Of a DNA stretch of 64,000 bases, positions 27,699 to 32,159 are shown piece by piece (position 1 is the stretch's first letter; each line of letters begins with the position of its first letter). The stretch comes from Corynebacterium canis (GTDB lineage: Bacteria; Actinomycetota; Actinomycetes; Mycobacteriales; Mycobacteriaceae). The translations under genes and the position numbers were made by a program. The stretch is from contig NZ_CP047080.1 in assembly GCF_030408595.1 (NCBI RefSeq), forward strand, positions 1,509,247 through 1,573,246. The letters run 5' to 3'. The notes beneath the pieces were generated by a model. That model was not told the origin of the DNA, did no database searches, and saw nothing but the letters and a program-made list of their open reading frames with translations.

Positions 27699-27995
27699 CA
27701 ATATATTTTGCGGCCGAAAGCTCGTTAGGGAACGCCGTAGGAGCGTTTCTAAGCCGTCGAAATCGGCTACCCTTGGTCACCTATGGCCAAAATTCGTTAA
27801 CTGGCCTCATTCGATGCGGTCGGTTGCGCGCGATCTATTTCCGGGCGGGGAGTTGAACGGTGTCTATCGATATTTTTTACATCAAAATCCAGAAATCTGT
27901 GTAAAAAATATCGCGCCGGCGGCCCTGGGCGGCCCCAGATGATGAAAATTACACTAAATCGGCGATTCGTGTGTAAAAAACTTCATGTGAAGTGC
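27699..27995 (+). repeat. 300-bp non-coding direct repeat, copy A
   Basis: Copy A spans about 27699-27995 and matches 28187-28484 with few differences at an offset of 488-489 bp (one small indel near the left end). It carries a 14-bp perfect inverted repeat CGATATTTTTTACA (27868-27881) and TGTAAAAAATATCG (27900-27913) with an 18-nt loop, then a second TGTAAAAAACTTCA motif and CTTCATGTGAAG. No reading frame is conserved as protein. Confidence 0.88.
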
Positions 27996-28186
27996 GCAAC
28001 CTATTGCCACAGGCCCCCTGGCGGGGTGGTGCGTGCCATTCTGCGCCGAAGCCTAAGCCCAGGAACATCACTGATGCACCACTTGGGCCGCCCGGCGACT
28101 TGCGGGGTGCCCGTTGCTGTAGTTGTATCCCACTCGGCGATCGGCGGGCCGCAACATGCCGGCCCCTAGGCGAGGCCGATCGGCGC

Positions 28187-28484
28187 CAATATATTTTCTA
28201 ACCAAAAGCTTATTAGGAAAACGTCATAGGGGCTCCGCTAAGCCGTCGAAATCGGCTACCCTTGGTCACCTATGGCCAAAATTCGTTAACTGGCCTCATT
28301 CGATGCGGTCGGTTGCGTGCGATCTATTCCCAGGCCGGGAGTTGAACGGTGTCTACCGATATTTTTTACATCAAAATCCAGAAATCTGTGTAAAAAATAT
28401 CGCGCCGGCGGCCCTGGGCGGCCCCGGATGATGAAAATTACACAGATTCGGCGATTCGTGTGTAAAAAACTTCATGTGAAGTGC
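28187..28484 (+). repeat. 300-bp non-coding direct repeat, copy B
   Basis: This is the second copy of the element at 27699-27995. The 14-bp inverted repeat is conserved without change, whereas flanking bases vary. The 190 bp between copies (27996-28186) is unrelated, GC-rich, and holds no gene that I can support. Copy B ends 6 bp before the stop of the next minus-strand gene. Confidence 0.88.
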
Positions 28485-28489
28485 ACGAC

Positions 28490-28798
28490 TTAAGCTTGGT
28501 CGGCGTCGGGGAGGACCTCGCACTCGCCGATGATATTGCCACCGTCGAAAAAGGGGAAGCGGGATCCGGCGGAGAGGAGATAGTGGGGGGCGTCGTCGAC
28601 AAGGAAGCGGACTTCGTCGACAAAAGTTTCGAGGCCTTGCTCCACGGGTGGGGTCTTCATGGAGAACACGACGCTCCAAGCGGCGTCGGGTTGATGCAAC
28701 TGGGTGTGCAGCGTTAACGCGCTAGGCAGGGAACGCTTTTCGGGGGCGAAGACTTCTGGGTCCCAGCGGATAATGCAGGGCAGTGGTGGCAAAGACAT
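28490..28798 (-). CDS. Small hypothetical protein (102 aa)
   Basis: 102 residues, not recognised. The sequence (PPLPCIIRWDPEVFAPEKRS, HQPDAAWSVVFSMKTPPVEQ, FVDEVRFLVDDAPHYLLSAG, FPFFDGGNIIGECEVL) has a balanced soluble composition with beta-strand character and looks like a true globular protein. There is no signal peptide or membrane segment. The gene lies between repeat copy B and the pflA end, on the same strand as the pfl genes with an 86-bp gap. Confidence 0.6.
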   Translation of the reverse strand: MSLPPLPCIIRWDPEVFAPEKRSLPSALTLHTQLHQPDAAWSVVFSMKTPPVEQGLETFVDEVRFLVDDAPHYLLSAGSRFPFFDGGNIIGECEVLPDADQA

Positions 28799-29761: not shown

Positions 29762-30013
29762 TTACGCGCCGTAGTGGAAGGTGCGGGAAAGCACGTCGCG
29801 CTGTTGCTCCTTGGTCAGCTTGACAAAATTGACGGCGTATCCGGACACGCGAACGGTGAGGTTGGGGTAGTTTTCGGGGTGCTCCATGGCGTCCTCCAGC
29901 GTGCCACGATCAAGCACGTTGATGCTCGCGTGGTACAGGCCGGAACCGGCATTGTGTTCGGTGCGGGCGGCTTTCATATCGGCCATACGCTCGTCAAAGG
30001 TTTTGCTGGACAT
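29762..30013 (-). CDS. grcA: Stand-alone glycyl-radical domain of pyruvate formate-lyase
   Basis: 83 residues; AAGGAG seven bases before ATG 30013. Residues 26-81 are the C-terminal domain of pyruvate formate-lyase: [33 protein letters not shown] with radical glycine at 58, and [15 protein letters not shown]. Residues 1-25 are a unique helical lead. In most bacteria this domain is the end of PflB, while a separate copy (GrcA/YfiD) only repairs damaged enzyme. Here the adjacent PflB lacks the domain, so this subunit must complete the enzyme rather than act as a spare. It sits between pflB (31-bp gap) and pflA (10-bp gap). Confidence 0.93.
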
Positions 30014-30044
30014 GTGTTCTCCTTGAATGTGTGCGGGGGAAACG

Positions 30045-32159
30045 TTAGCGGACGGGTTCGTCGACCACGGCGTTCGCGGGGTCCAACAGCGGCTCGTCCA
30101 TGATAAAGCCGGCGTCGAGGATGCCCACCAGGTTGCCTACCTGCTCTTCCTTGGTGCGGCCCAAGCCGGACGGCGTGATCGTATTTGTGAGCGAAATGCC
30201 GTCGAGTGCGTCCTCGTAATCCAGTTTGCCCACGGAGAGCATGGAGGCGAGCATGCCGTGGCTGTCCAGACCGTTTTCGGGGTTGGCGCCCGGCGCGAAC
30301 GGGGTGCCCGCCTTGTGCCCGGAGGGGAAGGAGCCGGTGGCCTTGCCGTAGACCACATTGGAGGTGATGGTGAGCACGGATTGCGTGGGGATCGCGTCCC
30401 GGTACAGGGGGATTTCCTTGATTTTGCTCATCACGGTGTGCACGACGGTGGCGGCGATATCGTCGGCGCGGTCGTCGTCGTTGCCGTAGACGGGGAAATC
30501 GCCTTCGGTGAGGTAGTCCACCACGAGGCCGGTTTCGTCGCGCACGGGGGTGACCTGCGCGTATTTGATTGCGGCGAGCGAGTCGGCGACGATGGACAGC
30601 CCGGCGATGCCGCAACCCATGGTGCGGACGATATCGGAATCATGCAACGCCATTTCGATTGCTTCGTAGGCGTAGCGGTCGTGGCAGTAGTGGATGATAT
30701 TGAGCGCTTCCACATAGGTGCCCACGACCCAATCGAGCATGTCTTCGTATTTTTGCCAGACTTCGTCGAAGTCGAGGGGGCCGTCGCCGGTGATGGGGGC
30801 GAAGCCGGTGACGATTTGCTTGCCGGAAACCTCGTCGCGGCCGCCGTTGATTGCGTAGAGCAGGGCCTTTGCCGCATTGACGCGGGCACCAAAGAACTGC
30901 ATTTGCTTGCCGACGGCCATCGGGGAAACGCAGCACGCAATTGCGGCGTCGTCGCCCCACCTGTCCCGAATCTGCTCGTCCGATTCGTATTGGATCGAGG
31001 AGGTTTCAATGGAGATCGCGGCGCAGAAGTCCTTGTAGCCCTGGGGTAGGGCGGGGTCCCAGAAAATGGTGATGTTCGGTTCCGGGGCGGGGCCCAGATT
31101 GCGCAGGGTTTGCAGCAGGCGGAAGGACGTCTTGGTCACCTGGGCGCGGCCATCGAGGGAAAATCCGGCGTCGGACCAGGTGGCCCGGTAGGGGTCGCCG
31201 GAGAAAATTTGGTCGTAATCAATGGTGCGCAGGAAGCGGACGATGCGCAGCTTGATCACCAGGGCGTCGATAATCTCCTGCGCCTCGGTCTCCGTGATGC
31301 GGCCGGCCTGTAGGTCGCGCTCGAAGTAAATATCGAGGAAGGCGGAAAGGCGGCCGATGGACATGGCGGCGCCGTCCTGGGATTTCACGGAGGCGAGGTA
31401 GGCGAAATAGGTCCACTGCACCGCTTCCTTGGCGGTGGTGGCGGGCTCGGAAATGTCGAACCCGTATTCGGAGGCCATGGCCTTGAGCTGCTTTAGGGCC
31501 TTGATCTGCTCGGCGTGTTCCTCGCGGTACCGGGCCCAATGCTCGGAGAACGGTTGATCGATCACCTTGTCTTTGGCAGCGTTCTTTTCCGCAATCAGGG
31601 CGTCCACACCGTAGAGCGCCACCCGGCGATAATCGCCGATAATGCGGCCGCGGCCATAGGCGTCCGGCAGGCCCGTGACGATGTGGGAGGAGCGGGCGGC
31701 GCGGATACGCGGGGTGTAAATATCAAAGACCGCATCGTTATGGGTCTTGCGATACTTGGTAAAGATCTCCTTGATGCGATCGTTGGGTTCCTTGCCCGCC
31801 TCGCGGATGGCGGTTTCCACCATGCGCCAGCCGCCGTTCGGCATCATGGCGCGCTTGAGCGGGACATCGGTTTGCAGGCCCACGATGACATCATCATCGG
31901 CGCTGATATAGCCCGCTGGGAAGGCATCGATATCGGCCGGGGTCTCCGTATCCACGTCATACACGCGGCGCGCGCGCTCTTCGGACAGGTACTTGGATTC
32001 TAGGTGGTCCCACACGCGCAGGGTTTTGTCGGTGGGGCCGGCGAGGAAGGATGCATCTCCCTGATAAGGAGTGTAATTGCGCTGAATAAAATCACGGACA
32101 TCAATGGCGGTTTGCCATGGACCGGAAGCGAAACCTTCCCAAGCAGCATATTGAGGCAC
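30045..32159 (-). CDS. pflB: Formate C-acetyltransferase core, lacking the glycyl-radical domain
   Basis: 704 residues from GTG 32159. It matches the pyruvate formate-lyase barrel throughout: [40 protein letters not shown] and the catalytic pair Cys409-Cys410 in [14 protein letters not shown]. It ends at [19 protein letters not shown] and a stop, about 55-60 residues short of usual PflB. The missing RVSGYAV segment is encoded by the next gene, with its own ribosome site. Together they should convert pyruvate and CoA to acetyl-CoA and formate in fermentation. The enzyme is oxygen-sensitive, so the locus implies anaerobic growth. Confidence 0.95.

Follow-up and report, generated by a model that had tools for sequence, protein, structure and literature searches.

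How does a pyruvate formate-lyase (PFL), the enzyme that turns pyruvate and CoA into acetyl-CoA and formate, operate when its gene stops short of the glycine that carries the radical? This question is raised by a locus of Corynebacterium canis, lying in a 64,000-nucleotide stretch of DNA (the window), in which pflB, a small open reading frame (ORF) and pflA follow one another on the minus strand. The large and small ORFs occupy different frames and are separated by 31 bp, and a dedicated activase is encoded 10 bp downstream of the small ORF (PflA; TIGR02493, 298 bits against a cut-off of 231.75). A sequence-only reading of this DNA had proposed that PflB keeps its cysteine pair and ends before the radical segment, that this segment is encoded by the next gene with its own ribosome site, and that the small product is an obligatory subunit with a unique leader. 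The gene layout that it described is present in the sequence as claimed, and its account of PflB is upheld by both profile matches and alignment to the E. coli enzyme (Table 1). Further along, 3' of pflA, the window also holds a 273-nt direct repeat (27731-28003 and 28220-28492; 93% identical).

Table 1. Features of the split PFL locus of C. canis (positions in the window)
Feature	Position	Strand	Basis or remark
pflB large subunit, 704 aa, GTG start	30045..32159	-	PFL barrel and both catalytic cysteines
pflB large subunit without strand beta-10, glycyl-radical loop and C-terminal helix	30045..32159	-	PF01228, TIGR01255, alignment
Arg325 codon, at E. coli Trp333 position	31185..31187	-	Trp otherwise conserved
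Codons Cys409-Cys410 (E. coli Cys418-Cys419)	30930..30935	-	Alignment
Large-subunit C-terminal tail, residues 686-704 and stop	30045..30104	-	Largely non-homologous; modelled disordered
AAGGAG ribosome-binding site of small subunit	30019..30024	-	Within the 31-bp gap
Small glycyl-radical subunit (GrcA2), 83 aa, ATG start	29762..30013	-	NF008341, PF01228
Small-subunit leader, codons 1-24	29942..30013	-	Conserved; no clear YfiD or intact-PFL counterpart
Gly58 codon, radical glycine (E. coli Gly734)	29840..29842	-	RVSGYAV motif, alignment
pflA, activating radical SAM enzyme, 288 aa	28885..29751	-	TIGR02493; CX3CX2C at residues 74-81

The two products divide single protein families between them. 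Of the 106 positions of PF01228 (Gly_radical), 1-65 match residues 621-685 of the large protein and 66-106 match residues 24-64 of the small one, a division also seen at the DNA level; TIGR01255 (formate C-acetyltransferase, 744 positions) is likewise shared out, with 1-679 on the large protein and 684-741 on the small. The large subunit matches PF02901 with 655 bits over residues 19-605, scores 982 bits against TIGR01255, just below the cut-off of 994.2, and is 57% identical to E. coli PflB over aligned columns, and its cysteine pair is invariant across 43 aligned PFLs. Its predicted model superposes on E. coli PFL (2pfl) with a TM score of 0.94. The last well-aligned residue, Phe685, corresponds to E. 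coli 693 and is followed by a variable tail, which in the genus loci extends 0-15 residues past residue 689 and differs between species, and which in C. canis is modelled with pLDDT below 50 over 688-704. The glycyl-radical domain is absent from the large chain, PF01228 positions 66-106 sitting on the separate ORF, and the enzyme, to judge from these profiles and alignments, is split at a domain boundary. A side search returned two PDB chains (38la_A and 38lb_A, formate acetyltransferase of 687 and 739 aa) that match the large part and not the radical domain; neither was among the best 50 fold-search matches to the large-subunit model (library to 2026-04-08).

One feature of the large subunit is, among the rows compared, peculiar to C. 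canis. Arg176, Arg435 and Trp333 are presumably pyruvate-pocket residues in E. coli; Arg172 and Arg426 are present in C. canis PflB, and in the E. coli alignment the Trp333 position is taken by Arg325. Tryptophan stands there in 102 of 103 split rows (some of them duplicates, the exception being C. canis), in 8/8 Bifidobacteriaceae and in 75/75 other intact PFLs, a set of 83 intact rows from which G122 (the one joined Corynebacterium gene, see below) and Cellulomonas citrea were left out. Loss of this tryptophan was thus rejected as a hallmark of split enzymes. If the base is correct, Arg325 may mean an altered or reduced PFL activity in this strain, and it has no bearing on the split. Elsewhere in the large subunit, 49 positions mark split enzymes against other intact PFLs, of which 36 are common to most Bifidobacteriaceae and 13 are not; because the majority are shared with these intact enzymes, the body of the enzyme appears to have changed little with the split.

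The small protein exceeds the threshold of the NCBIfam family GrcA2 (NF008341; 159.9 bits, cut-off 145) and aligns to residues 69-123 of YfiD (6owr) and 695-756 of E. coli PFL, the match to YfiD excluding the longer N-terminal half of that protein. Gly58 is the glycine of RVSGYAV, a motif identical in 96/96 loci of the genus, as are 35 of the 59 positions of the radical domain (25-83), suggesting that the small protein is under strong constraint. For leader residues 1-24 neither YfiD nor the intact PFLs inspected offer a clear equivalent. The leader varies more than the domain (mean entropy 1.09 vs 0.32 bits over 96 loci), and R9, M13 and R17 are identical in 96/96. Structure prediction places a helix at residues 6-20 with low to middling confidence (block means of 68 and 61 pLDDT) and, with the small protein modelled alone, gives no confident model of residues 21-33, a stretch that includes much of the beta-10 segment. 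R9, M13 and R17 are spaced as if along a single helical face, but a shuffling test of conservation in 94 of the 96 leaders found no significant helical periodicity: at period 3.6, 579 of 5000 shuffles did as well, and the signal peaked at 3.9. The leader is found in the 96 split Corynebacterium loci aligned and also in Dermabacter, Actinomyces, a Trueperella metagenome-assembled genome (MAG), Rothia and one further genus. Of the original interpretation, then, the domain-boundary split and the obligatory small subunit are supported, and the claim that the leader is unique falls.

Is the small protein the only source of a radical domain for this PflB? The C. canis genome is a single contig of 3,045,310 bp (completeness 99.99). 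Across it PF02901 matches once and PF01228 only on the two pieces at the locus, so that a profile search with these two families, the check that the earlier reading had called for, found no second intact pflB or other complete PFL. An anaerobic ribonucleotide reductase, NrdD, is encoded away from the PFL locus. We extended the survey to 201 Corynebacterium genomes, 102 of which had a glycine-radical match, five with NrdD only and 97 with a PFL; 104 had no PFL. The order large gene, small gene, pflA on one strand was kept in 97/97 loci, and in one of them pflA lies as far as about 830 nt from the small gene. In 96 of the 97, C. canis included, the PFL is encoded by two separate ORFs, the exception being G122, where it forms one frame. 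Many other genomes offered candidate fused PFLs in frames of some 780-890 aa, and these were discarded since at least one stop lies between the large and small pieces. No intact PFL radical domain was found in the genus, the best PF01228 match scoring 82.6 bits vs about 112 in the intact PFLs scanned. The 15 near-complete PF01228 matches that did occur were all NrdD-like, being 70-100% identical to one NrdD over comparisons that span 190 to 614 aligned residues, with two of them confirmed by Pfam.

The arrangement also occurs outside Corynebacterium. Other genera of the same GTDB family yielded a matching PFL in 6 of 301 genomes, all intact (frames of 753-787 aa). A class search over 394 genomes gave 45 matches, three of them above the GrcA2 cut-off: two Corynebacterium, one being C. 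canis, and a genome from another family (G610), also split. In a scan of named species with the Rothia protein as query, from which the best 80 of 580 loci were chosen by likeness to that query, 10 had the split boundary, 69 were joined (a few of these truncated at contig ends or frameshifted) and one, in Rhodoblastus acidophilus (L254), was broken elsewhere, its PFL frame being interrupted near residue 583, away from the domain boundary. The ten split loci comprise seven from Corynebacterium, of which one sits at a contig edge, together with those of Dermabacter hominis, Actinomyces gaoshouyii and the Trueperella MAG, the last with a stop inside the large gene. We found no intact PFL in the four split genomes outside Corynebacterium (G610, and those of L184, L189 and L191; completeness is known for G610 only). 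Protein names in a protein collection add Rothia, Arcanobacterium, Schaalia, Actinotignum and Changpingibacter, on the small protein alone. Cellulomonas is facultative and Streptomyces aerobic. Because their loci in the scan keep intact PFLs, the link between the split and a facultative lifestyle is only partial. Some genomes of other classes hold separate radical-domain ORFs alongside near-complete PFL-type domains, an arrangement resembling a spare part; one example from the phylum search is G785, with a 747-aa frame whose radical domain is near-complete and, in a 100-aa frame, a separate radical-domain ORF.

With these surveys in hand, several ways of explaining the split without an obligatory second chain can be weighed. 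The worry, named in the sequence-only reading as a possible refutation, that a sequencing or assembly error created the stop is removed by the 95 further genus genomes with two ORFs, in which the junctions differ in gap, frame and stop codon. A programmed frameshift or stop read-through yielding a full-length PFL might be suspected from the closeness of the ORFs and from the common frame that they share in 39 of the 96 loci. However, the relative frames across these loci are divided 39, 24 and 33, the gaps run from 3 to 287 nt, the large genes end in TAA (65), TAG (23) or TGA (8), and in 94/96 loci an SD-like motif stands upstream of the small gene, a mixture that no single mechanism fits; the product would moreover hold the leader and the gap sequence as an insert. 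On its frames, gaps and stops we reject this explanation, to which we attach practically no probability. That PFL is decaying, the split being a step toward a pseudogene, gains some colour from the many sampled Corynebacterium without any PFL and from individual broken genes, namely the stop in the Trueperella MAG and a pflB in fragments in one Corynebacterium (G170; at this locus, L039, the small gene and pflA are whole). Yet G170 and a locus at a contig edge are the only two of the 96 split loci with an incomplete large gene, which is whole in 95/97 genus loci, the small gene is strongly conserved, the cysteine pair is invariant in the aligned PFLs, and other families show this boundary and leader as well, all of which makes decay very improbable.

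The remaining alternative of this kind is the one implied by the name of the family, that the small protein is an ordinary spare of the GrcA/YfiD type for oxygen-cleaved PFL. It has on its side a score above the cut-off of a family that NCBI calls "autonomous glycyl radical cofactor GrcA2", to which the C. canis protein belongs, and a match to YfiD over the structured half. The resemblance to E. coli GrcA/YfiD is real: two reports (PMC8683613, PMC12338860) describe a separate small protein that likewise bears beta-10, the radical loop and the C-terminal helix, depends on PflA for activation and works together with the PflB cysteines. In E. coli, however, PflB is made whole, and GrcA comes to its aid once the radical domain of PflB has been damaged, whereas PflB of C. 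canis never has the domain. GrcA also carries a disordered N-terminal half of 60 residues, the half left out of the match, unlike the 24-residue leader of C. canis, and grcA lies far from pflB, whereas the C. canis small gene adjoins it. A spare requires a complete PFL to repair, and none was found alongside the small gene in C. canis, in the other sampled split Corynebacterium or in the four split genomes outside the genus; PflB lacks precisely the region that the small protein carries. In the genomes examined, and contrary to its name, the protein is the sole radical domain of the PFL. We therefore consider a spare-part role hardly credible. As the only PFL-type glycyl-radical domain found for a truncated PflB, the small protein should be obligatory, as the sequence-only reading held, and very probably the locus encodes a complete, working PFL of two chains.

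How such an enzyme arose can be approached through trees of the large domain. In a tree of 118 large domains, in which every fourth genus locus was kept, the split label needs three changes, vs 29.6 on shuffled labels. A slower tree of 42 rows, with bootstrap unsettled (correlation 0.929), needs four and places Bifidobacteriaceae inside the split group (82/91). Topology tests, whose groups were chosen with the first tree already in view, rejected the split genes as one clade (p-AU 3e-7) and left standing a placement of Bifidobacteriaceae outside the split group (p-AU 0.239). In the trees, the intact PFLs of Bifidobacteriaceae and Cellulomonas citrea are the nearest one-chain relatives of the large subunit, differing from it in having a single chain, a complete Gly_radical domain and no leader. 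The 118-row tree suggested C. citrea as a second re-fusion, which we set aside as insecure since placement outside the split group is compatible with the data (p-AU 0.247). C. citrea, joined and leaderless, and Bifidobacteriaceae may be ancestral joined relatives or re-fusions.

The joined gene of G122 is a clearer case. It nests among the split genes, placement outside them being rejected (p-AU 0.015), and at its junction a Tyr codon replaces the TAA stop of its relatives and is followed by 14 codons of former gap that lead into the ATG of the small gene. The fused junction (L040) keeps an AAAGGA stretch and the old ATG, and a free small subunit might still be made. This recent re-fusion is known from one genome, as a query of linker plus radical region found no other such fused protein among the best 120 of 7036 proteins. 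The simplest account is that the gene was split once, with a leader gained, that the arrangement then passed into several families, and that the joined state was regained at least once. In Silvimonas terrae (L211, 5233-5430) an intact PFL is followed by a separate radical-domain frame of 66 codons and then by pflA. This could plausibly represent an intermediate, in which a neighbouring spare was later turned into an indispensable part.

A close precedent for a two-chain PFL is man-made. According to work on E. coli PFL (PMC8683613), residues 693-759 take in beta-10, the radical loop and the final helix, and the oxygen-cleaved enzyme is susceptible to proteolysis at 690-695. The same source reports that an engineered pair of tPFL (1-695) and truncYfiD (61-127) had, once activated, an apparent kcat of 204 per s vs 105 for PFL; that the radical installed amounted to 2.7 uM for tPFL:truncYfiD, 15.9 for cPFL:YfiD and 0.5 for tPFL:YfiD; and that calorimetry detected no binding between tPFL and YfiD or between cPFL and truncYfiD. 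The engineered enzyme thus resembles the natural one in being cut within a few residues of the same place into the same two pieces and in being competent once activated, and differs in being poorly activated and leaderless. Since matching engineered pieces turn over, two such chains can catalyse; since they acquire the radical poorly and the two mismatched pairs showed no detectable binding, a split enzyme would need something that the pieces from E. coli lack, namely good docking and activation. The leader, on the strength of its conservation and its co-occurrence with the split, is probably a docking or activation element; that it supplies what the E. coli pieces lack is our guess.

From these comparisons we infer how the two chains would be assembled and would act. 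The large chain would give the barrel, the pyruvate and CoA site and the cysteine pair, and the small chain the tenth strand of the barrel, the Gly58 radical loop and the C-terminal helix, docking at the place of the intact enzyme's own C-terminus and so completing a normal PFL fold. The 24-residue leader would aid this docking or the activation that follows, in which PflA would install the radical on the small chain within the complex, perhaps helped by a separate radical domain being easier to expose; the radical would then pass from Gly58 to Cys410 as in E. coli. Oxygen would cleave at the glycine of the small chain. In oxygen-cleaved E. coli PFL residues 696-733 have to move (PMC8683613), whereas in C. 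canis no stump of the loop would be left in the large-chain site. With the cleavage site located there, cells could replace a damaged small chain with no half-loop of the large one in the way, and an advantage in swapping the oxygen target is plausible.

Whether any such benefit keeps the chains apart divides two readings that otherwise overlap. It may be that the two-chain enzyme works and that its split arose as a neutral chance event, became fixed a single time and has since travelled by descent and transfer with no oxygen-related advantage, a reading whose chances we put a little short of even. The trees are compatible with one split, the re-fusion points to a joined state that cells tolerate, intact PFLs persist in the Cellulomonas and Streptomyces loci, and there is little sign that the small subunit is translated in surplus. 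On this last point, the ribosome site of the small gene has a median duplex energy of -8.8 kcal/mol vs -7.9 for that of pflB, and is stronger than the latter in 50/93 loci and weaker in 43/93 (Wilcoxon p 0.036) and stronger than that of pflA in 74/93, by a rough measure from which 4 of the 97 loci dropped out and in which pflB start codons are uncertain; site strength neither demonstrates nor excludes surplus translation of the small chain and bears on it weakly. Against neutrality speak the retention of the arrangement in 96/97 genus loci, although loss of a stop could undo those in a suitable frame, and the conserved residues of the leader. More tentatively, and with a probability that we would place nearer one in three than one in two, the two-chain enzyme of a whole group of actinobacteria could be a modular PFL, in which a long-lived catalytic body receives a short-lived, freely exchangeable radical cartridge. 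Every hit by oxygen would then be followed by a fresh cartridge as part of normal operation, and the helix of the leader would be the key to docking and activation.

The small protein is itself already known through the GrcA2 family, a name or a similar one being borne by proteins of Corynebacterium, Trueperella, Arcanobacterium, Actinomyces and relatives; what is new is its pairing with a truncated PflB together with the absence of any complete PFL. In the open-licence PMC literature, by titles and the starts of abstracts, we found no description of a naturally split PFL or of GrcA2 as the sole radical domain for a truncated PflB. For annotation, an "autonomous cofactor GrcA2" in bacteria that bear the split is probably a PFL subunit, and score cut-offs set for full-length proteins can miss the large subunit, as the TIGR01255 score of the C. 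canis protein illustrates (982 vs 994.2 bits).

Whether radical transfer needs covalent attachment, and how PflA gains access to a buried glycine, are hard to test in a one-chain PFL. A natural separation, in what is apparently the sole PFL of the cell, offers a system in which docking, activation and exchange can be measured separately, and lets one ask whether a detached oxygen target speeds recovery from air. A fermentation enzyme that is a single protein in E. coli would be made of two in Corynebacterium and its relatives, with its oxygen-sensitive radical tip as a separate piece. If the modular reading is true, the cofactor of this enzyme would be a disposable protein subunit, and E. coli GrcA would be a partial version of the same idea.
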